A stretch of 64,000 nucleotides of DNA from an uncultured Croceitalea sp. Lineage in GTDB: Bacteria; Bacteroidota; Bacteroidia; Flavobacteriales; Flavobacteriaceae. The notes under the pieces are model-generated. The model saw only the letters and a program-made list of their open reading frames with translations. It made no database searches and was not told the origin of the DNA. Where the stretch lies: contig CANMOV010000007.1 of the NCBI GenBank assembly GCA_947499565.1, forward strand, positions 21,104 to 85,103, given 5' to 3'. Below are positions 27,857-36,730 of the stretch, piece by piece (within the stretch, counting starts at the first letter, position 1; each line of letters begins with the position of its first letter). A program made the position numbers and the translations under genes.

Positions 27857-29353
27857 TTATTTAATCGAATTACTTAGCATGCCATAAAACGCTTTAATTC
27901 CATAAGCCAACTGTCCAATTTTGATGTTTTCGTTAGGGCTATGTTGGTTGTTATCTGGGTTAACCATAGGTATAATAAATGCGGGAATCTTTAATTCATT
28001 AATAAATGGAGCTATTGGTACTGTGCCTCCCATAATGCGTATTTCTACTATTTCCTCATTAAAAGTATTTTGTAAGGTGTTTACCAAAAATTGTCCATAA
28101 CTATTATTAAAATCTGTTCTAAATGCATCAGTTACGGACCCTTCTAAAACGGTTACTATTTTATTATGAGATAAACGTTCCTGTTTGGTTGGAACATGGT
28201 CTAAAACATGGTATCCCTGCTTTTGAATATGGGTTTTAACTAGTTTTTTTAAGCGATTCCCATCGGATTCTGGTACTAGGCGTAAATCCAATTCTGCCGT
28301 TGCCGTTGCAGGGACAATGGTACGAGCTTTTTTACCAACCCAACCCGAGCCTAATCCACGAATATTTAGACTTGGATATTGCAAAGCCTCTTGATAAAAT
28401 TTACCTACTTTCTCAGCAGTATTAAATTGCAATTTTTCGGCTATTGCTTCATTGCTGTCGGGAACGCTCTTTAACACTTTCTGTTCTGCTTCACCCAAGG
28501 TTATACCGTCATAATAACCTGGAGTGGTTACTCGACCGTCAGTATCTTTCATTGTGGCTAATAGCTGTGCTAGTTGAAAACCGGGATTTGGAGCATAATT
28601 ACCATAATGACCACTATGCTGAGGTTTCACTGGTCCGTAAGTTGTTAAAGAAAGTGTGGTAATTCCTCTACATCCATAAACCACGGTTGGTTTTCCCGAT
28701 GTATGTACTGGACCATCAGCTATTACTAAAAAGTCGGCCTCTAATAATTCGCGATATTTTTTTACTGCAGCAGGCAAAGGTTTACTACTTTTTTCTTCTT
28801 CACCATCTAGAATCACCTTAACATTAAACGGAAGTTTTTTACCTTCTTTTTTTAGTAAATCAATAGCATTTAAAAGCATGACAATAGGACCTTTATCATC
28901 TGAAGTTGAGCGTCCAAACAACCGCCAATTATAATCAATAGTTTCATCTAATTCTGTAAACGGAATTGTTTTTAAACCATCTGGACTAGGTTTCTTTAGA
29001 ACCACCTTATAAGGACTTTCCTGATTCCATTTACTTGGGTCCACTGATTGCCCATCAAAATGCATATAAATCAACATAGTTGGCTTATCCTCTTCCATCG
29101 GCAATGCAGCAAAAAACAAAGGGAGGTTTTCGGTCTCTAGCTCCATGGTATTAAAACCTCTAGTGTTAAACTTTTTCTTTAACCAGAAGATATTATCATC
29201 AATGGCATCTGCATTTAAAGCATCATTTGGGATGGCAACAAAATCACGTAGCTCTGAAATCGCATTAGCCACTTTGGATTTTATTTCAGTTGAGTCTTGA
29301 GTATAAACTAAAGAGGTAAAAATAAGTGCAAGTAAAAAAAATCCTTTTTTCAT
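27857..29353 (-). CDS. Secreted M20 family metallopeptidase (dipeptidase-like)
   Basis: A 498-residue protein with a signal peptide (about residues 1-18). M20 metal-site residues are visible: YMHFDGQSVD (His-x-Asp), GRSTSDDKGP (bridging Asp), DGEEE (catalytic Glu) and a late NQHSPNEN (His). A dimerisation domain occupies roughly residues 225-395. It likely hydrolyses dipeptides in the periplasm. It sits after trpA on the same strand (27 bases), possibly read through from the trp operon. Confidence 0.87.
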   Translation of the reverse strand: MKKGFFLLALIFTSLVYTQDSTEIKSKVANAISELRDFVAIPNDALNADAIDDNIFWLKKKFNTRGFNTMELETENLPLFFAALPMEEDKPTMLIYMHFDGQSVDPSKWNQESPYKVVLKKPSPDGLKTIPFTELDETIDYNWRLFGRSTSDDKGPIVMLLNAIDLLKKEGKKLPFNVKVILDGEEEKSSKPLPAAVKKYRELLEADFLVIADGPVHTSGKPTVVYGCRGITTLSLTTYGPVKPQHSGHYGNYAPNPGFQLAQLLATMKDTDGRVTTPGYYDGITLGEAEQKVLKSVPDSNEAIAEKLQFNTAEKVGKFYQEALQYPSLNIRGLGSGWVGKKARTIVPATATAELDLRLVPESDGNRLKKLVKTHIQKQGYHVLDHVPTKQERLSHNKIVTVLEGSVTDAFRTDFNNSYGQFLVNTLQNTFNEEIVEIRIMGGTVPIAPFINELKIPAFIIPMVNPDNNQHSPNENIKIGQLAYGIKAFYGMLSNSIK

Positions 29354-29380: not shown

Positions 29381-30145
29381 TTAGCGAATTCCAGCGATAA
29401 AAGTACTTATGTTCTGAACTCCATTATTTGTCAAATGTTTTATAAAAGCAGAACCAATAATAGCACCCTTTGCATTTTTAGTTGCTGCTTTAAAAGTATC
29501 TGAATCTTTTATACCAAAACCAACAATCTGTGGATTCTTCAAATTCATTTTTGTAATACGGCTAAAATATTCAGTTTGTTTGCTTCCAAAACCAGATTTG
29601 GAACCTGTAACGCTTGCAGAACTTACCATATAAATAAAGCCGTCAGAGGCTTCATCAATTTGATGAATGCGTTCATCCCTAGTTTGTGGTGTAATTAAGA
29701 ATATATTTAGCAGATTATATTTTTTAAAAATCATCTCATAATCCGACTTATAAACATCTAAGGGCAAATCTGGCATGATTAGACCATCAATCCCAATCTC
29801 ATAACATTTTTTGCAAAATGCCTCTACACCATATTGAAGCATAGGGTTAAAATACCCCATAACGATTAATGGAATAGAAACTGATTTCCGAATATCCTTT
29901 AATTGTTCAAAAAGTTTTTCAGTGGTCATTCCGTTTTTCAATGCAGCGGTAGAACTGCCTTGTATGGTTGGCCCATCGGCTAATGGATCGCTAAAGGGTA
30001 AGCCGATTTCAATCATATCGACCCCATTTTTTTCTAAATCTCGAATAATTTCAACGGTATCATTTAAAGCTGGATAACCTGCTGTGAAATATATGGAGAG
30101 GAGTTTTTTGTCCTCTTGGAGTTTCTCAATAATTCTATTACGCAT
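29381..30145 (-). CDS. trpA: Tryptophan synthase alpha chain
   Basis: A 254-residue TIM-barrel subunit that cleaves indole-3-glycerol phosphate and passes indole to TrpB. It has FTAGYP near the start, the catalytic EIGLPFSDPLADGPTIQ motif, an AFCKKC helix, MPDLPLD and a closing IGSAFIK phosphate-binding region. Its start is adjacent to the trpB stop, sharing one base. It is the last biosynthetic gene in the operon. Confidence 0.97.
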   Translation of the reverse strand: MRNRIIEKLQEDKKLLSIYFTAGYPALNDTVEIIRDLEKNGVDMIEIGLPFSDPLADGPTIQGSSTAALKNGMTTEKLFEQLKDIRKSVSIPLIVMGYFNPMLQYGVEAFCKKCYEIGIDGLIMPDLPLDVYKSDYEMIFKKYNLLNIFLITPQTRDERIHQIDEASDGFIYMVSSASVTGSKSGFGSKQTEYFSRITKMNLKNPQIVGFGIKDSDTFKAATKNAKGAIIGSAFIKHLTNNGVQNISTFIAGIR

Positions 30146-31329
30146 TACGCTAACTTAAAGTAATCTATATATGTGTTTAAATCTTTATCGCCTCGGCCAG
30201 ATAGGCTTATAACCACGATATCATCTGGTTTAAATTTTCTATGCTCAAAGATTGCGAATGCATGCCCTGTCTCAATTGCAGGAATAATGCCTTCTAATTG
30301 TGAAAGTTCTAGTCCAGCAGTCATTGCTTCATCATCCGTTGCGGAGTAAAACTCGGCTCTTCCAGATTTGTGTAAGTGAGAATGCATTGGACCAACACCA
30401 GGATAGTCCAATCCCGCAGAGATGGAATAAGGTTCTGTTATTTGTCCATCAGTAGTTTGCATAAGCATGGTTTTACAACCGTGTATAATACCTATTTTCC
30501 CTAAAGCCGAAGTAGCTGCACTTTCCCCAGTTTCTATTCCTTTTCCTGCTGCTTCAACTGCAATGATACCCACATCTGGCTCATCTAAAAAATGATAATA
30601 GGTGCCTGCAGCATTACTACCTCCACCGATGCAGGCAACTACATAATCTGGATTTTCTCGACCTTCCTTTTCTTTTAGTTGCCATTTTATTTCTTCTGAA
30701 ATTACAGATTGAAAACGGGTAACCATATCAGGGTATGGGTGAGGTCCAATAGCTGAACCAATAATATAATGGGTATCCACAGGATTATTAATCCAATCAC
30801 GAATAGCCTCATTAGTAGCATCTTTTAGGGTTCTACTTCCGGATAAAGCCGGCCTAACCTCCGCTCCTAACATTTTCATGCGAGCAACATTTGGCGCCTG
30901 TCTTGCAATATCTATTTCGCCCATATAAACAATGCATTCCATACCCATTAATGCACATACAGTTGCAGTTGCAACGCCATGTTGACCAGCTCCAGTTTCT
31001 GCTATGATACGGGTTTTTCCTAATTTTTTGGCCATTAAAATTTGACCAATGGTATTGTTTACCTTATGCGCGCCGGTATGGTTTAAATCTTCTCGTTTTA
31101 GATAAATTTTGGTATTGTGTTTTTCCGAAAGACGTTTTGCAAAATATAGGGGAGAAGGCCTACCTACATAATCTTTTAGTAATTGGTGGAATTCTTTTTG
31201 GAAAGATTCCTCATACATAATGTCCAAATACTTTTGGCGTAGTTCTTCCACATTTGGATATAACATTTCTGGAATAAATGCCCCCCCAAACTCTCCATAA
31301 TATCCTTTTTTGTCGGCGTGATAACTCAT
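30145..31329 (-). CDS. trpB: Tryptophan synthase beta chain
   Basis: A 394-residue PLP enzyme that condenses indole with serine. The PLP lysine is in [15 protein letters not shown], the phosphate-binding loop in [12 protein letters not shown], and the GVGPMHS and GRGDKD motifs are present. It overlaps trpF by 4 bases at its start and trpA by one at its end, so all three are translated together. Length matches the family. Confidence 0.97.
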
Positions 31330-32009
31330 TCGATGTTAGTTAGTGATTTTTTAAATTCTTTTAATTTTTCAATATCCTTCAAGCCTGGCGCTAATTCGAA
31401 CTTACTATTTACATCTATAGCGTGGCAATATTGTGATTCGGGTCTTTTTGTAAATTCTTTTAATGTTGCTATCTCATCTAAACCGATTCCTCCACTTAAA
31501 AAATAGGGTTTGGTGGAGGGGTAGTTTTTTAAAACGGACCAATTAAAAGTATAGCCATTACCTCCAGGTAATTTTCCCTTTGTGTCAAACAAATAGAAAT
31601 CGCAAACATCCTCAAATTGCATTAATTGCTTAAAATCGAAGTTGTCTTTAATTGAAAAAACCTTAATGATTTTAAGATGAGGAACTTGTTTTTTTAGTTC
31701 ATCACAAAAGGCAGGGTTTTCATTTCCATGTAATTGAGCATAAAGTAGTTTAAACTGCTTTACTAAATGCTTGATTTCCTGTATTGATGCATCAACAAAA
31801 ACGCCAATCTTTTTAATACTATGGGGTACTGATGGCATATCACCTTTAAAATAGCGCTTAGAGGGTTCCCAAAAAATAAAGCCTAAATAATCTGGTTTTA
31901 GCGCTGCAACTTGAGATGTGTTGTTATTCATACCACAGACTTTCAACTTTAAAGAATCCTTTTCTTTAGTTGCCAGATTTTTGTCGTTATTGGTATAATA
32001 ATAATCCAT
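31326..32009 (-). CDS. trpF: Phosphoribosylanthranilate isomerase
   Basis: A 227-residue TIM barrel for the third step of tryptophan synthesis. The family opener [12 protein letters not shown] starts at about residue 22, preceded by a 20-residue N-terminal extension ([17 protein letters not shown]) that is unusual and could contain an alternative start. Also visible are ...AQLHGNE and [11 protein letters not shown] with the catalytic DVNS(K)FE at the end. It overlaps trpB. Separated from trpC by 83 bases that hold an inverted repeat. Confidence 0.92.
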
Positions 32010-32065
32010 CTTTTATAGTATATCCTTTATGTCAGGTCGAGTGTTTTGAAACTTGTTTTAAAATG

Positions 32066-32090
32066 TATCGAGACTTACTTCTTCTCGATA
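32066..32090. repeat. Inverted repeat in the trpC-trpF gap, REP-like
   Basis: A perfect 8-bp inverted repeat TATCGAGA / TCTCGATA encloses a 9-base loop. The surrounding bases (32020-32092) include TCGAGTG and TCTCGATA words that recall intergenic repeats of other Flavobacteriaceae (recollection, not tested). It breaks the tight spacing of the operon. Confidence 0.6.
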
Positions 32091-32092
32091 TG

Positions 32093-32878
32093 CTATTTTT
32101 TTAATTTATTAATAAATTCTGCTGCACTTTTACCGGGATTGTCGGTTTTCATAAAATTCTCACCAATTAGAAAACCTTGGTATCCAAATTGTTTTAAATC
32201 TTGAATTGCCTCAATAGTGCTAATTCCACTTTCTGATACTTTCACAAAGTCATCAGAGATAAGGTTCGATAGTTTTTTGCTTGTCTCTAGACTTACTTTA
32301 AAGGTTTTTAAATTTCGATTGTTGACTCCAACCATATCCAAACTAGGCATAATGGATTTTTGCAACTCCTCCTCATTATGCACTTCTAATAACACTTCTA
32401 ATCCAATACTTTTTGCAAGCTCAGATAGTGTTTTTATTTCTGTTCTTGTCAATACTGCGGCAATCAATAGAATTACATCTGCACCATGCGCTTTTGCTTC
32501 TAAAATTTGATATTCGCTAATTATAAATTCTTTTCTAAGTATAGGCATGGTAACAGAAGTTCTCGCTAAGAGTAAATCTTCCAAAGAACCTCCAAAATAT
32601 TTGATATCTGTTAAAACACTCATACCAGAAACACCTCCATTCTCATAGCCAATAGCTACTTGACCAACATTGGTATTCTGGTTTATAGTGCCTTTAGAAG
32701 GAGAGCGTCTTTTATGTTCTGCAATAATTCCAGTATTACTTTTTTGTAATGCACTTGTCAATGATTTTCCTTTGCGACCAAAAAGAACGGATTGTTCCAA
32801 TTGAGAATTGGGAATTAGTGATTTTTTTAAATCGACTTCCTTTCTTTTGTCAGCTACTATTTTATCTAGTATGTTCAT
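32093..32878 (-). CDS. trpC: Indole-3-glycerol phosphate synthase
   Basis: A 261-residue TIM barrel that closes the indole ring. Motifs include IIAEHKRRSPSKG (catalytic Lys and substrate loop), PILRKEFIISEYQ, VLLEVHNEEEL and GVNNRNLKTF followed by VSESGIS. Length fits the family. It starts 86 bases after trpD, with a second inverted repeat in the gap. Confidence 0.97.
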   Translation of the reverse strand: MNILDKIVADKRKEVDLKKSLIPNSQLEQSVLFGRKGKSLTSALQKSNTGIIAEHKRRSPSKGTINQNTNVGQVAIGYENGGVSGMSVLTDIKYFGGSLEDLLLARTSVTMPILRKEFIISEYQILEAKAHGADVILLIAAVLTRTEIKTLSELAKSIGLEVLLEVHNEEELQKSIMPSLDMVGVNNRNLKTFKVSLETSKKLSNLISDDFVKVSESGISTIEAIQDLKQFGYQGFLIGENFMKTDNPGKSAAEFINKLKK

Positions 32879-32889
32879 GTTCTATTCTT

Positions 32890-32964
32890 TGTCATTTTGG
32901 CCTAAGCTAAGCGATTGAAAAATCTTAATTTTCTTAAGAGTTCTTATATGCGTCCAACATGACA
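32890..32964. repeat. Palindromic intergenic element in the trpD-trpC gap
   Basis: An outer inverted repeat (TGTCATTTTGG at 32890-32900 and CCAACATGACA at 32954-32964, 10 of 11 paired) encloses an inner one (TCTTAA...TTAAGA). It fills almost the whole trpD-trpC gap. No protein is encoded. It looks like a small palindromic repeat or MITE-like element, not tested against other copies. Confidence 0.55.
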
Positions 32965-33960
32965 TTAGTTTTTACTTAATTCCTGCAATTTCTTTAATGC
33001 CAACAATCCATTTCCGCTAAGTAATGATTCCTTAGCTTTTTCGAACCCTTCTTTGGGGCTTATTTGTTTTACGGTTGCAATAGCAACTCCAGCATTGGCA
33101 CAAACCACATTATTTTGAGCTTCAGTTCCTTTTCCACTTAAAATGTCTGTAAATATTTGTGCTGAATCTGGCACATCATTACCACCAATAATTTCTGTCG
33201 CTTTAACTGTAGTTATTCCAAAATCTGAGGGTTTTATAATACTTTCCGAACCATTAGAAATTGTTTTGGTATCTCCGGTAAGACTAATTTCGTCATAGCC
33301 ATCCAAAGCATGTAAAATGGTAAAATTCTTATCTGTATTTTGATATAAATACCCGTACATCCTTGCCAATTCTAAATTAAAAACTCCAACCATTTGATTT
33401 TTTGGAAATGCAGGGTTAACCATGGGACCTAGCATATTAAAAAAGGTCTTTACAGCCAATTCTCTGCGTATTGGAGCTACATTCTTCATTGCCGGGTGAA
33501 ATAATGGTGCATGTAAAACACATATACCTGCCTCATCTATAGACTTTTTTAAGAAGTCAACGTCATTACTAAACTTAATGCCTAAGAACTCCATTACATT
33601 ACTACTACCACATTTTGAAGAAACACCGTAATTACCATGTTTGGTGACTTTTATACCAGCCCCTGCGGAAACAAAAGAAGATAGTGTAGAAATGTTAAAA
33701 GTGTCTTTACCATCACCACCGGTACCACATAAATCAATGGGGTTGTATTCAGATAAATCAATTGCTAAGCATAATTCTAGAAGTGCATCGCGGAAACCTT
33801 CTAACTCTTCAATGGTGATGCTACGCATCATATATACCGTTAAAAATGCAGTTATCTGACTTGTGTTATAATCTCCCTTAGCAATATTTACCAAAATTTG
33901 CTTGGCATAATCTTTTTCAAGGATTTCGTGATTAATAAGTCTATTTAGTGTCTCTTTCAT
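32965..33960 (-). CDS. trpD: Anthranilate phosphoribosyltransferase
   Basis: A 331-residue enzyme that joins anthranilate with PRPP. It has LCGTGGDGKDTFNIST, the PRPP and Mg site, and KHGNYGVSSKCGSS, followed by the FHPAMKNVAPIRREL region. I choose the ATG at 33960: it overlaps the trpG stop as ATGA, the standard coupled arrangement. A TTG upstream would add four residues. Confidence 0.96.
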   Translation of the reverse strand: MKETLNRLINHEILEKDYAKQILVNIAKGDYNTSQITAFLTVYMMRSITIEELEGFRDALLELCLAIDLSEYNPIDLCGTGGDGKDTFNISTLSSFVSAGAGIKVTKHGNYGVSSKCGSSNVMEFLGIKFSNDVDFLKKSIDEAGICVLHAPLFHPAMKNVAPIRRELAVKTFFNMLGPMVNPAFPKNQMVGVFNLELARMYGYLYQNTDKNFTILHALDGYDEISLTGDTKTISNGSESIIKPSDFGITTVKATEIIGGNDVPDSAQIFTDILSGKGTEAQNNVVCANAGVAIATVKQISPKEGFEKAKESLLSGNGLLALKKLQELSKN

Positions 33961-34523
33961 TTTTGTAACCAATTTTTCAATATTTGTTTCCCTTGCGGTG
34001 TTAAAACCGACTCTGGATGAAACTGTACTGCTCTAATATCAAATTCTTTATGTCTTAAAGACATTACTTGTCCATTTTCATCAAAAGAAGTAGCTTCTAA
34101 ACTATTCGGTAGGTTTGAATTTACCACCCAGGAATGATAACGACCGACTTCGATTTGGTTTGGTAGACCATTAAAAATATAATCGTCTTTTGTAATTTTT
34201 ATTGTCGTAGCAACACCGTGATATACTTTGTCTAGATTTAGTAAACTACCTCCAAAAACTTCTCCGATAGCTTGTTGCCCAAGGCATACACCAAGTATTC
34301 TTTTTTTACCTGCATAAGTGCCTATTATTTCTTTTAAAAGCCCAGCTTCATCTGGAATGCCTGGACCAGGAGAAAGCACAATTTCTTGGAAATCATCCAC
34401 TTCTTCTATTGTTAATTGGTCATTACGTTTTACAATTACCTTGCAATCCAAATCTTCTAGATAGTGCACCAAATTATAGGTGAAACTATCGTAATTATCT
34501 ATCATTAATATCTTTCTTTCCAT
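33957..34523 (-). CDS. trpG: Anthranilate synthase glutamine amidotransferase subunit
   Basis: A 188-residue class I glutaminase. The nucleophile Cys is in GVCLGQQAIGEVFGG, and the catalytic His-Glu pair in QFHPESVLTPQG. It begins NYDSFTYNLVHYLEDL, the typical N-terminus. It supplies ammonia to TrpE. It directly follows trpE (stop at 34524) and overlaps trpD by four bases. Confidence 0.96.
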   Translation of the reverse strand: MERKILMIDNYDSFTYNLVHYLEDLDCKVIVKRNDQLTIEEVDDFQEIVLSPGPGIPDEAGLLKEIIGTYAGKKRILGVCLGQQAIGEVFGGSLLNLDKVYHGVATTIKITKDDYIFNGLPNQIEVGRYHSWVVNSNLPNSLEATSFDENGQVMSLRHKEFDIRAVQFHPESVLTPQGKQILKNWLQK

Positions 34524-35921
34524 CTAGATAGTTTCAGCAATTTCTAGTGCTTTGTTCAAAGCGCCAAGTTTATTATAGGTTTCCTGTAATTCATCTTCAG
34601 CATTTGAAGCCGCCACTAATCCTGCACCAGCTTGAAAATGAAGTTCATGGTTTTTGCTAAGGAATGTTCTAATCATAATGGCATGGTTAAAGTTTCCATT
34701 AAAATCCATAAAACCAATTGCTCCACCATAATAACCTCTACTGGTTTTTTCATACTTTTCTATAAGCTGCATGGCCATATGTTTGGGAGCGCCGCTTAAG
34801 GTGCCCGCGGGAAATGTATCTGCTACAATTTTTAGTGTAGAAATATCTGACTTTTTCATCCCGGTAACTTTAGAAACTAAATGAATTACATGCGAAAAAT
34901 ACTGTACCTCACGATAGGTTTCTACATTCACAAGATTCCCATTTCTACTTAGGTCGTTTCGAGCTAAGTCCACTAACATTACATGTTCACTATTTTCTTT
35001 ATCGTCCTGAGCTAATTGCTTTGCGAGTTCTGCATCCTTTTCATCATTGCCAGTACGTTTGTATGTTCCTGCAATAGGGTGAATTTCTGCTTTCCCATCT
35101 TTTACAATCAATTGTGCTTCTGGAGAGCTACCAAAAATTTTGAAATCTCCATAGTCAAAAAAGAAAAGATATGGTGAGGGGTTTATAGAGCGTAATGCAC
35201 GATACACGTTAAACTCATCACCTTTAAATCCTTGCGAAAACCTGCGAGACAGTACCAATTGAAAAACATCTCCACGTTGACAATGCTTTTTAGCTAATGC
35301 TACATGATTTTTGAAAGCTTCATCTTCTAAATTAGTTTTTACTTCCCCGTCTTTAGAAAAATTATAGGAGGCAAAACTTCTTACTTTAAGTACTTGCTCT
35401 AACTGCGGAATATTGTTTTCAGTTTCAAAACAATGCGCAAAAAGATAGGCTTCGTTTTTAAAGTGATTAATTGCTATGATGTTTTGATAAACGGCATAAT
35501 AGATATCAGGAATTGCAACTGAATTATTTTTTTTTGAAATTTCAACATCCTCAAAATAGCGAACAGCATCATAGGCCATAAAGCCGAAAAGACCGTTTGT
35601 TATAAATTTAAAATTTTGATTGTCTACTTCAAATTTCTTGCTAAATGCGTCGATTTCTTGAGTAACTTCAATAGAATCAGTAATTCTAATCTCTTCCTTT
35701 AAACTATCCGGAAATTCTTTTACAATAACTTCATTTTCAACTTTAATAGAAGCTATAGGGTTGCAACAGATGTAAGAAAAGCTATTGTCATTGGCATGAT
35801 AATCACTACTCTCCAAAAGAATACTATTAGGGAATTTGTCCCTAATTTTTAAATAAACACTAACAGGGGTAATCGTATCCGCAAGTATTTTTTTATGATA
35901 TGTTTTTAGTTTGTAAGACAT
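34524..35921 (-). CDS. trpE: Anthranilate synthase component I
   Basis: A 465-residue protein that makes anthranilate from chorismate. The N-terminal LLESSDYH motif forms the tryptophan feedback site. The C-terminal domain has GDVFQLVLSRR, SGAPKHMA and RGYYGGAIG. I choose ATG 35921 (MSYKLKTYHKK). It is the first structural gene of the trp operon (trpEGDCFBA) and is preceded by a terminator hairpin and a leader peptide. Confidence 0.95.
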   Translation of the reverse strand: MSYKLKTYHKKILADTITPVSVYLKIRDKFPNSILLESSDYHANDNSFSYICCNPIASIKVENEVIVKEFPDSLKEEIRITDSIEVTQEIDAFSKKFEVDNQNFKFITNGLFGFMAYDAVRYFEDVEISKKNNSVAIPDIYYAVYQNIIAINHFKNEAYLFAHCFETENNIPQLEQVLKVRSFASYNFSKDGEVKTNLEDEAFKNHVALAKKHCQRGDVFQLVLSRRFSQGFKGDEFNVYRALRSINPSPYLFFFDYGDFKIFGSSPEAQLIVKDGKAEIHPIAGTYKRTGNDEKDAELAKQLAQDDKENSEHVMLVDLARNDLSRNGNLVNVETYREVQYFSHVIHLVSKVTGMKKSDISTLKIVADTFPAGTLSGAPKHMAMQLIEKYEKTSRGYYGGAIGFMDFNGNFNHAIMIRTFLSKNHELHFQAGAGLVAASNAEDELQETYNKLGALNKALEIAETI

Positions 35922-35942
35922 AATTAGTAACACTATAAATTG

Positions 35943-35971
35943 AAAAAGGCTTGTCGTGATGACAAGCCTTT
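35943..35971 (-). terminator. Attenuator terminator upstream of trpE
   Basis: On the minus strand an 11-bp perfect stem (AAAGGCTTGTC with GACAAGCCTTT), loop ATCAC, runs straight into TTTTT. It lies 22 bases before the trpE start and 25 bases after the leader peptide stop, where an attenuator should be. The segment TCACGA in its loop and 3' arm (35954-35959) can pair with TCGTGA at the leader stop (35996-36001), a possible antiterminator. Confidence 0.85.
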
Positions 35972-35995
35972 ATATATTATTCAATAGGGACTAGT

Positions 35996-36049
35996 TCACG
36001 AATGTTGTCGTAAATTATTCCACCACCAAGTTTTGTTTATTATTTTCAT
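35996..36049 (-). CDS. trpL: trp operon leader peptide
   Basis: A 17-residue ORF reading MKIINKTWWWNNLRQHS, with three adjacent Trp codons (TGG at 36028-36020) and a TGA stop at 35998-35996. It lies between a strong promoter and a terminator hairpin, ahead of trpE. This is the classical ribosome-stalling attenuation layout: low charged tRNA-Trp stalls the ribosome on the Trp codons and lets the operon be read. The ATG falls within about 6 bases of the -7 box, so the transcript may be leaderless. Confidence 0.85.
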   Translation of the reverse strand: MKIINKTWWWNNLRQHS

Positions 36050-36054
36050 TGGTT

Positions 36055-36085
36055 CAAATATAGAGAATGCATTTTAACTATCAAA
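36055..36085 (-). promoter_or_regulatory. trp operon promoter (TTTG - 19 bp - TATATTTG)
   Basis: Minus strand TTTG at 36085-36082, 19 bases, then TATATTTG at 36062-36055. This is a complete match to the Bacteroidota promoter. Transcription would start near 36049-36050, at or next to the leader peptide ATG. Confidence 0.85.
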
Positions 36086-36104
36086 CAAAGATGTGTTATA
36101 AAAA

Positions 36105-36132
36105 AACATCCTACCGTAAAAGCAGGATGTTT
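36105..36132 (-). terminator. Terminator after the YceI gene
   Basis: On the minus strand AACATCCTGC, loop TTTTAC, GGTAGGATGTT, then a T run. The stem has about 8 perfect pairs. It separates YceI from the trp promoter. Confidence 0.75.
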
Positions 36133-36157: not shown

Positions 36158-36730
36158 TTAAAATTCTAAATCCACAACCAAATCAAATTCATCATAGATT
36201 AGCTTATCTTTTGCTGTTCCAATGATTCCTGAGCCATACTCAACCTTGTAATTTGTTCTATCCACCTTTAATGTAGCTGTTGCTTTACTGCCATAAACAG
36301 AAACGTCAAAAGTCACTGGTTTAGTAATACCCTTAATAGTCAAGTCTCCAGTTACTTTATAAGAATTTTTTCCAGAGGCGGTAACTTCTGTAAAAACTAA
36401 TGCAGAAGTTGGGTTAGAGGCTGTCGCAAAGAAATCGTCTGAGTTTAAATGACCGTCTAATTTTCCTTTATATTCCCCTTCTAAATCGGTTGTATTTATA
36501 GTTGTCATATCAACTACAAATTCACCTCCAGTTAATTTATCTCCATCAAATTCTAATGCGCCAGATTTAAGGGCAATGGTACCTGTATGAGAACCAGTTA
36601 CTTTGTATGCTTTCCAAGTTACGGTACTAGCATCTGTTTTTACTTCTTTTTTCTCGCCATCAATTGGGTCCGCAGATACTGTTGCACCAATTACTAAGGC
36701 TAGGGCTAAACTTAAAATGTTCTTTTTCAT
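36158..36730 (-). CDS. YceI family periplasmic protein
   Basis: A 190-residue protein with an N-terminal signal peptide (about residues 1-20, ending in VSADP). YceI-family features follow: strands TVTWKAYKVTGSHTGTIAL, LEFDGDKLTGGEFVVDM, DDFF, then YKVTGDLTIKGITKPV and a closing strand ending FDLVVDLEF. YceI proteins are lipocalin-like barrels that bind isoprenoid-type lipids. It lies 40 bases after the nitroreductase gene on the same strand, so it may be the last gene of the MarR-nitroreductase unit. Confidence 0.92.
   Translation of the reverse strand: MKKNILSLALALVIGATVSADPIDGEKKEVKTDASTVTWKAYKVTGSHTGTIALKSGALEFDGDKLTGGEFVVDMTTINTTDLEGEYKGKLDGHLNSDDFFATASNPTSALVFTEVTASGKNSYKVTGDLTIKGITKPVTFDVSVYGSKATATLKVDRTNYKVEYGSGIIGTAKDKLIYDEFDLVVDLEF

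Follow-up and report, generated by a model that had tools for sequence, protein, structure and literature searches.

In the usual picture of attenuation, the antiterminator takes the early (5') arm of the terminator. The trpL attenuator of Escherichia coli follows the same logic as the locus described here, and its leader ORF is preceded by a longer 5' region. Bacteroidota rarely use Shine-Dalgarno sequences. The Bacteroid-trp RNA family is entered in a table of Weinberg et al. 2010 (PMC2864571), and a 2019 paper on Flavobacterium psychrophilum likens it to the E. coli trp leader (PMC6414381). A transcriptome study of F. psychrophilum sees 'strong clues' that operons for amino acids are attenuated by leader peptides (PMC9723704), and Bacteroidetes go unmentioned in the available text of a 2010 attenuator survey (PMC2965389). 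In Sinorhizobium meliloti, the transcript is described as beginning at the trpL AUG, which gives a leaderless leader peptide (PMC7298713).

The present locus belongs to an uncultured Croceitalea sp. and lies within a stretch of 64,000 nucleotides that was analysed as a whole and is called the window. The original prediction had placed a trp attenuator in this Bacteroidota operon. The attenuator is present but does not represent a new kind, as its Rfam family was published in 2010 and taken up in the F. psychrophilum paper; the observation and the attenuator reading were right and largely known. A description of the RF01692-type element as a new family was rejected on the Rfam match and these earlier publications. 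The new and testable parts are the geometry of the antiterminator and a predicted leaderless start.

Leader and trp operon in the window

The operon trpEGDCFBA spans positions 29381-35921, with the downstream order trpE, trpG, trpD, trpC, trpF, trpB and trpA. The NCBIfam models trpG_papA, trpD, trpC, trpB and trpA were matched over their cut-offs and the best trpF match stayed below. Judged from the sequence, trpE probably starts at the ATG at 35921, not at the mechanically assigned GTG at 35933. An M20-family peptidase gene (27857-29353, minus strand; Pfam/NCBIfam-type match) with, by eye, a signal-peptide-like start follows 27 nt after trpA and probably shares the operon with it. The trp transcript of F. 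psychrophilum is described as including an elastase (PMC6414381). On the promoter side, a hairpin, AAACATCCT...AGGATGTTT followed by Ts, was seen by eye at 36101-36132 (minus strand) and was absent from the terminator scan output. It sits between a YceI-family gene (36158-36730) and the trp promoter and is likely the terminator of this upstream gene. The features of the leader region are:

36082..36085, minus strand: TTTG, candidate -33 element read from the sequence, 19 nt upstream of the -7 box
36055..36062, minus strand: TATATTTG, Bacteroidota -7 promoter box (TAnnTTTG), separated from the leader AUG by 5 nt
36049..36050, minus strand: predicted start of transcription, on the first base of the leader AUG or one base earlier, placed by the 5-nt spacing
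ATG 36049 to TGA 35996, minus strand: trpL leader peptide ORF MKIINKTWWWNNLRQHS, 17 codons with stop TGA at 35998-35996, recurring in relatives
36028-36020, minus strand: three tandem Trp codons inside the leader ORF, presumed ribosome stall sites
36008..36014, minus strand: core of region 1, UUUACGA, partner of region 2 by folding and pair counts
35995..36001, minus strand: region 2, UCGUGA(A), containing the leader stop codon; pairs with region 1 or, as putative antiterminator, with 35954-35959
35945..35971, minus strand: intrinsic terminator AAAGGCTTGTC-ATCAC-GACAAGCCTTT, loop at 35956-35960, T run at its end
35954..35959, minus strand: UCACGA, putative antiterminator target, made of terminator loop and first 3'-arm bases
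34524..35921, minus strand: trpE, first gene of trpEGDCFBA; best match NCBIfam trpE_most with 427.4 bits, below the cut-off of 517.7

The Rfam family RF01692 (Bacteroid-trp) was matched at 36069-35961 with 54.4 bits, above its gathering cut-off of 49, and the leader is therefore beyond chance. The structure that Rfam draws for the family fits the window with many non-standard pairs. The terminator has an 11-bp stem of -15.6 kcal/mol (z -7.1 against shuffles), the terminator scan reports the same hairpin, and leader and terminator folded together reach z -4.9. As in an E. coli-type attenuator, a short ORF with tandem Trp codons is followed by an intrinsic terminator, and an alternative 1:2 hairpin forms at or directly behind the Trp codons. 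Much of this anatomy had been read correctly beforehand: the 17-codon ORF, the three adjacent Trp codons, the 11-bp terminator and the promoter all stand. The gap between the leader ORF and the terminator stem measures 24 nt. The two complementary hexamers are likewise placed correctly when read on the minus strand, TCGTGA at 36001-35996 containing the leader TGA and TCACGA lying at 35959-35954.

Distribution among Bacteroidota

Counts are given by family labels (f1, f11, f12 and f3), and we infer that f1 is Flavobacteriaceae because of the genomes named in its nearest TrpE matches. With RF01692 at E<=0.001, the genus gave matches in 6 of 8 genomes and the family in 189 of 249, and a phylum sample of 392 genomes gave them in 46; three other families gave matches in 29/101, 54/98 and 12/101 genomes. 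Searches over more than 40 genomes used strict filters under which weak matches are lost. A leader ORF containing two or more Trp codons in a row was present in 214 of 219 loci (three codons in 195, two in 19) and missing from five, in a set that is biased by having been picked with an Rfam model that itself includes the Trp codons. A second set was collected by TrpE similarity in named genomes and holds close relatives, because only the best 80 of 579 confirmed loci were taken; L224, whose upstream sequence is cut off, was excluded. All 79 remaining trpE loci carry a Trp-run leader, 69 as WWW within 300 nt of trpE and 10 at 490-578 nt upstream. Both sets bear out the earlier expectation that Trp codons are conserved in the trpE leaders of relatives.

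In the 10 loci with the distant leader (L229, L230, L249, L250, L251, L254, L258, L259, L269 and L289; Flagellimonas, Allomuricauda and relatives), an intact attenuator is separated from trpE by other coding DNA. The intervening ORF of L229 encodes a 94-aa GIY-YIG-domain protein (Pfam); ORFs similar to it were found by script in 7 of the 10 loci, and the DNA of L249, L250 and L254 is alike by eye. This GIY-YIG-type ORF is possibly a mobile gene expressed by way of the trp leader. A TrpE match was found downstream in 96 of the 114 Rfam-found loci with long flanks, adjoining the leader in f1 and about 1.4 kb further on in f11/f12. By eye, the first downstream ORF is trpB in the five f11/f12 loci viewed, and in 11 loci of f3 (L108-L119) the same Rfam family stands before a trpD-like first gene.

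Tryptophan might also be sensed in another way, by a T-box, a TRAP-like protein or a repressor, with the ORF being incidental. Bacteroid-trp is, however, the sole Trp-sensing RNA of the window at Rfam cut-offs, no T-box riboswitch was matched there at the gathering score, and Trp runs recur in both locus sets. Nothing was found in favour of this explanation, and judged on the RNA elements and leader ORFs it is scarcely credible. Ribosome-mediated tryptophan attenuation, as originally proposed, is the best reading, with Trp codons, terminator and trp genes recurring across many Bacteroidota genomes.

Complementarity of the leader and its terminator

A duplex test was applied to 210 leaders, in which the stretch from the Trp codons to the terminator was matched either to the terminator 5' arm or to the loop plus six 3'-arm bases and compared with 100 shuffles. 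Four of the 214 Trp-run loci were left out, L135 and L168 with a start too far from the Trp run and L173 and L199 with no automatic terminator. Loop and 3' arm were matched at q<=0.05 by 97% of 153 f1, 91% of 22 f11, 88% of 24 f12 and 0% of 11 f3 leaders. The 5' arm was matched at this level by 0% of f1, f11 and f12 (0/199 together) and by 55% of the 11 f3 leaders. With 500 shuffles, the window gave q 0.01 for loop plus 3' arm and q 0.618 for the 5' arm, while the E. coli K-12 trp leader, included as control, gave q 0.998 and q 0.012, respectively. On these shuffle tests, a single geometry is common to f1, f11, f12 and the window, and the other is seen in E. coli and in roughly half of the small f3 sample.

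Exchanging terminators between f1 and f11/f12 weakens the leader match: f1 leaders reach -9.87 with their own terminators and -7.25 with those of f12, and f12 leaders -11.38 with their own and -6.88 with those of f1. Swaps inside f1 (-9.64) or between f11 and f12 (f11 leaders -10.93 with f12 terminators, -10.96 with their own) cost little or nothing because the loops there hardly vary. In f3, the leaders fit the 5' arms of f12 and those of their own terminators equally well (-9.61 and -9.55, respectively), so that the geometry of f3 rests solely on the shuffle test with 11 sequences.

The motifs on both sides of the pairing are conserved in f1. CAC ends the terminator loop in 144 of 153 f1 terminators and, as a small control, does so in this hairpin alone among the nine terminator-like hairpins of the window. 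Of the 153 f1 sequences, 146 contain UCGUGA, and its register against the stop codon varies: it is read as Ser-stop in 89, starts 8 bases before the stop codon in 29, starts 6 bases past the first base of the stop in 22 and is placed otherwise in 6. To judge from these registers, UCGUGA is conserved as RNA, not as a stop codon. Among the seven f1 sequences that lack it, four match their own loop by 7 or 8 pairs by eye (L176 and L213 as GUCGCAAU with AUUGCGAC, L208 and L209 with wobble) and three keep about 5 pairs (L186, L187 and L207). By eye, L173, L187 and L207 have AAGUGAG in place of UCGUGA and a terminator loop CUCAC, possibly a further variant of the same pairing.

These data bear on a textbook E. 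coli-type attenuator, in which the true antiterminator would pair with the terminator 5' arm GGCUUGUC and the UCGUGA:UCACGA match would be incidental. Even though f11 and f12 leaders can match the 5' arm (mean -7.9 and -8.7 kcal/mol), and E. coli and 55% of the 11 f3 leaders do so beyond shuffles, none of the 199 f1, f11 and f12 leaders passes the test that loop plus 3' arm passes, the window shows the same imbalance, and a 5'-arm antiterminator gives no reason for the CAC loop end. Such an arrangement is considered improbable. For the window it was rejected, its q of 0.618 not being beyond shuffles; CAG..CCU partial matches to the 5' arm, first seen by eye in f12 leaders, were also dropped, the shuffle test giving them no support. 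Pairing of region 2 with the terminator loop and 3' arm is preferred.

Compensatory changes were counted in an alignment of 92 of the 199 sequences, consisting of all 46 f11/f12 sequences and 46 f1 rows, of which 39 were hand-picked for spread and 7 were chosen as lacking UCGUGA. The antiterminator pairing is formed in 90.8% of cells, and sliding the partner by 1-3 columns reduces this to 20-50%. Changes on both sides occur in five of its eight pairs, a number reached by 15 of 500 shuffles. They amount to 59 cells against a shuffle mean of 17.7 (0/500 shuffles), although relatedness inflates such tests and the independent events are far fewer than 59 because most cells represent one between-family change. 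This main change separates f1 from f11/f12 at columns 42/133, with G-C in 46 rows and A-U in 39. The terminator stem is paired in 95.2% of cells and region 1:2 in 73.1%, compared with 31-50% when slid.

Covariation, put forward earlier as a check in relatives, is seen in the antiterminator pairing, and the proposed TCGTGA:TCACGA pairing is backed by shuffle tests and compensatory changes alike. The smaller ACGA:TCGT pairing is also recovered, as the region 1 core pairs with region 2 in folds. What holds of the term 'textbook' is the ribosome-mediated reading of Trp codons; the 5'-arm geometry that it implies does not hold, the putative antiterminator taking loop and 3' arm instead and losing to the terminator in full-length folds.

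Predicted start, proposed mechanism and relation to known systems

In Flavobacterium johnsoniae, many transcripts are described as starting 4 or 5 nt after the promoter box, and leaders longer than 10 nt make up 87% (PMC6847099). When this rule is applied to the 5-nt spacer between box and AUG in the window, a 5' UTR of 0-1 nt is predicted, that is, the box places the start at or beside the AUG and the leader peptide message would be leaderless. Leaderless mRNAs are put at 5.5% in F. psychrophilum (PMC9723704) and 5' UTRs below 10 nt at about 3.7% in Bacteroides thetaiotaomicron (PMC7366714). Of 157 f1 leaders, 152 have a TAnnTTTG box no more than 60 nt from the leader start, where shuffles yield 9.3 on average. 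The spacing of the box is bimodal: it measures exactly 5 nt in 30 leaders and at most 9 nt in 46, and among the 106 long-spacer leaders it falls at 17-19 nt in 65 and at 16-20 nt in 78. The 46 include L032, whose box is probably there by chance, a likelier one standing 18 nt from the AUG. As a raw count, TTG precedes the -7 box by 17-21 nt in 38 of the 46 short-spacer and 87 of the 106 long-spacer f1 leaders with a box. Spacing is at least 20 nt in f11 and f12, and an exact TAnnTTTG box occurs in 1 of 11 f3 leaders.

Among the named relatives, spacing is 4-8 nt in 77 of 79 (67 of 69 with the near leader and 10 of 10 with the distant one), including Maribacter, Croceitalea, Allomuricauda/Flagellimonas, Arenibacter, Zobellia and Cellulophaga. 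When 57 f1 sequences are arranged in a TrpE tree, 4 changes suffice for the short-spacer state (18 rows, with L032 among them), against a shuffled mean of 15.4. The short-spacer clade that holds the genus of the window shows this state in 13 of 14 rows, the other row having no exact box, with support of 100/97. General leaderlessness of this genome (G000) was rejected, TAT[AC]TTTG-N5-ATG occurring 5 times in 3.88 Mb against 8 times in a reversed control; with N16-20 before ATG, the same, narrower pattern occurs genome-wide 74 times against 42 in the control.

Partial transcripts of 197 sequences (2 of the 199 were dropped) were folded from the leading edge of the ribosome onward. This edge was assumed to lie 13 nt from where the A-site codon begins, and the highest single pair probability served as measure. 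When three 3'-arm bases were out, a ribosome on the first, second or third Trp codon took the antiterminator above 0.5 in 94%, 97% and 97% of sequences, a ribosome on the stop did so in 1%, and without a ribosome the share was 28%. With six bases out, the corresponding values were 88%, 97%, 97%, 1% and 9%, and the window itself reached an antiterminator probability of 0.14, 0.83 and 1.00 on the first, second and third Trp codon. Once the full hairpin was out, the terminator had a mean probability of 0.95-1.00 and the antiterminator exceeded 0.5 in 0-4% of the 197 sequences. As the terminator nearly always wins in full-transcript folds, the antiterminator could act only kinetically. Region 2 was located by the duplex test itself, so that the partial folds show consistency, not proof. 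Its first base comes 24-28 nt after that of the first Trp codon (5th-95th percentile). By these positions a terminating ribosome would cover region 2 in the common registers, and would cover it only partly in the few leaders whose UCGUGA starts 7-11 bases after the start of the stop.

The match between leader and terminator could instead reflect a pseudoknot, or a contact with the loop, that forms alongside the terminator and modulates it or brings in a factor. Its UCAC part does sit in the loop, and the terminator is conserved beyond the need of a plain terminator, the mean majority base over the 46 f1 alignment rows being 0.98 for the 5' arm and 0.97 for the 3' arm, compared with 0.57 for the linker. 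Nevertheless, the match extends into the stem (GA, often GAC), whose bases cannot pair twice, and the ribosome positions separate two states in the partial folds, which by their nature exclude pseudoknots. A coexisting contact is regarded as very improbable, and an antiterminator that competes with the hairpin is retained.

The sequence of events would then be as follows. Transcription would probably start at the leader AUG or one base before it, and a ribosome would load onto the leaderless message. With sufficient charged tRNA-Trp, it would reach the stop inside region 2 and cover this region, the terminator would form and transcription would stop; if there is no translation, region 1 would hold region 2 and the outcome would again be termination. 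A stall on the Trp codons would disable region 1 wholly or partly. The freed region 2 could pair with UCACGA, in the terminator loop and first 3'-arm bases, while this emerges, and the terminator would lack the base pairs that nucleate it until RNA polymerase has cleared the T run. We hold with good confidence that the window contains a ribosome-mediated tryptophan attenuator (Rfam Bacteroid-trp) that controls trpEGDCFBA. Its anatomy and conservation, and the complementarity with its compensatory changes, are shown by the data, and stalling, start site, kinetic competition and the response to tryptophan are the parts that we infer.

The wider proposal is favoured by a modest degree, tempered by the small f3 sample: the Bacteroidota trp antiterminator would seize the terminator loop and the first 3'-arm bases and act solely kinetically, blocking nucleation of the hairpin as the loop leaves RNA polymerase; this geometry would alternate with the textbook 5'-arm one within one RNA family; and the Maribacter-Muricauda leader peptide would be made from a leaderless message. 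If this is true, targeting of loop and late arm across several Bacteroidota families provides a natural experiment on the speed of terminator nucleation behind RNA polymerase, the two geometries in one RNA family can be compared directly, and the leaderless leader peptide is a compact reporter of ribosome start on a bare AUG.

Among the open-licence literature matches listed, supplements aside, neither a loop-directed antiterminator nor a leaderless Bacteroidota trp leader was described, which is weak evidence. The leader belongs to RF01692 by its score over the cut-off, its Trp-codon leader ORF and its location before trp genes, and the RF01692 model (131 positions) stops at the terminator 5' arm, without the closing half of the terminator and without the antiterminator pairing found here. 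F. psychrophilum, also one of the Flavobacteriaceae, likewise has Bacteroid-Trp before its trp operon (PMC6414381), and the relevant passages of its two accounts (PMC9723704, PMC6414381) give no antiterminator geometry and no leaderless trp leader. The trpL of S. meliloti, an Alphaproteobacterium, resembles the window in its leaderless start, which in the window is predicted; the comparison covers this start (PMC7298713). With E. coli trpL the window shares tandem Trp codons and an intrinsic terminator ahead of trpE. In contrast to E. coli, where the leader matches the terminator 5' arm, the leader of the window matches loop and 3' arm, and a stop codon inside region 2 and an AUG predicted to be leaderless are features of the window.
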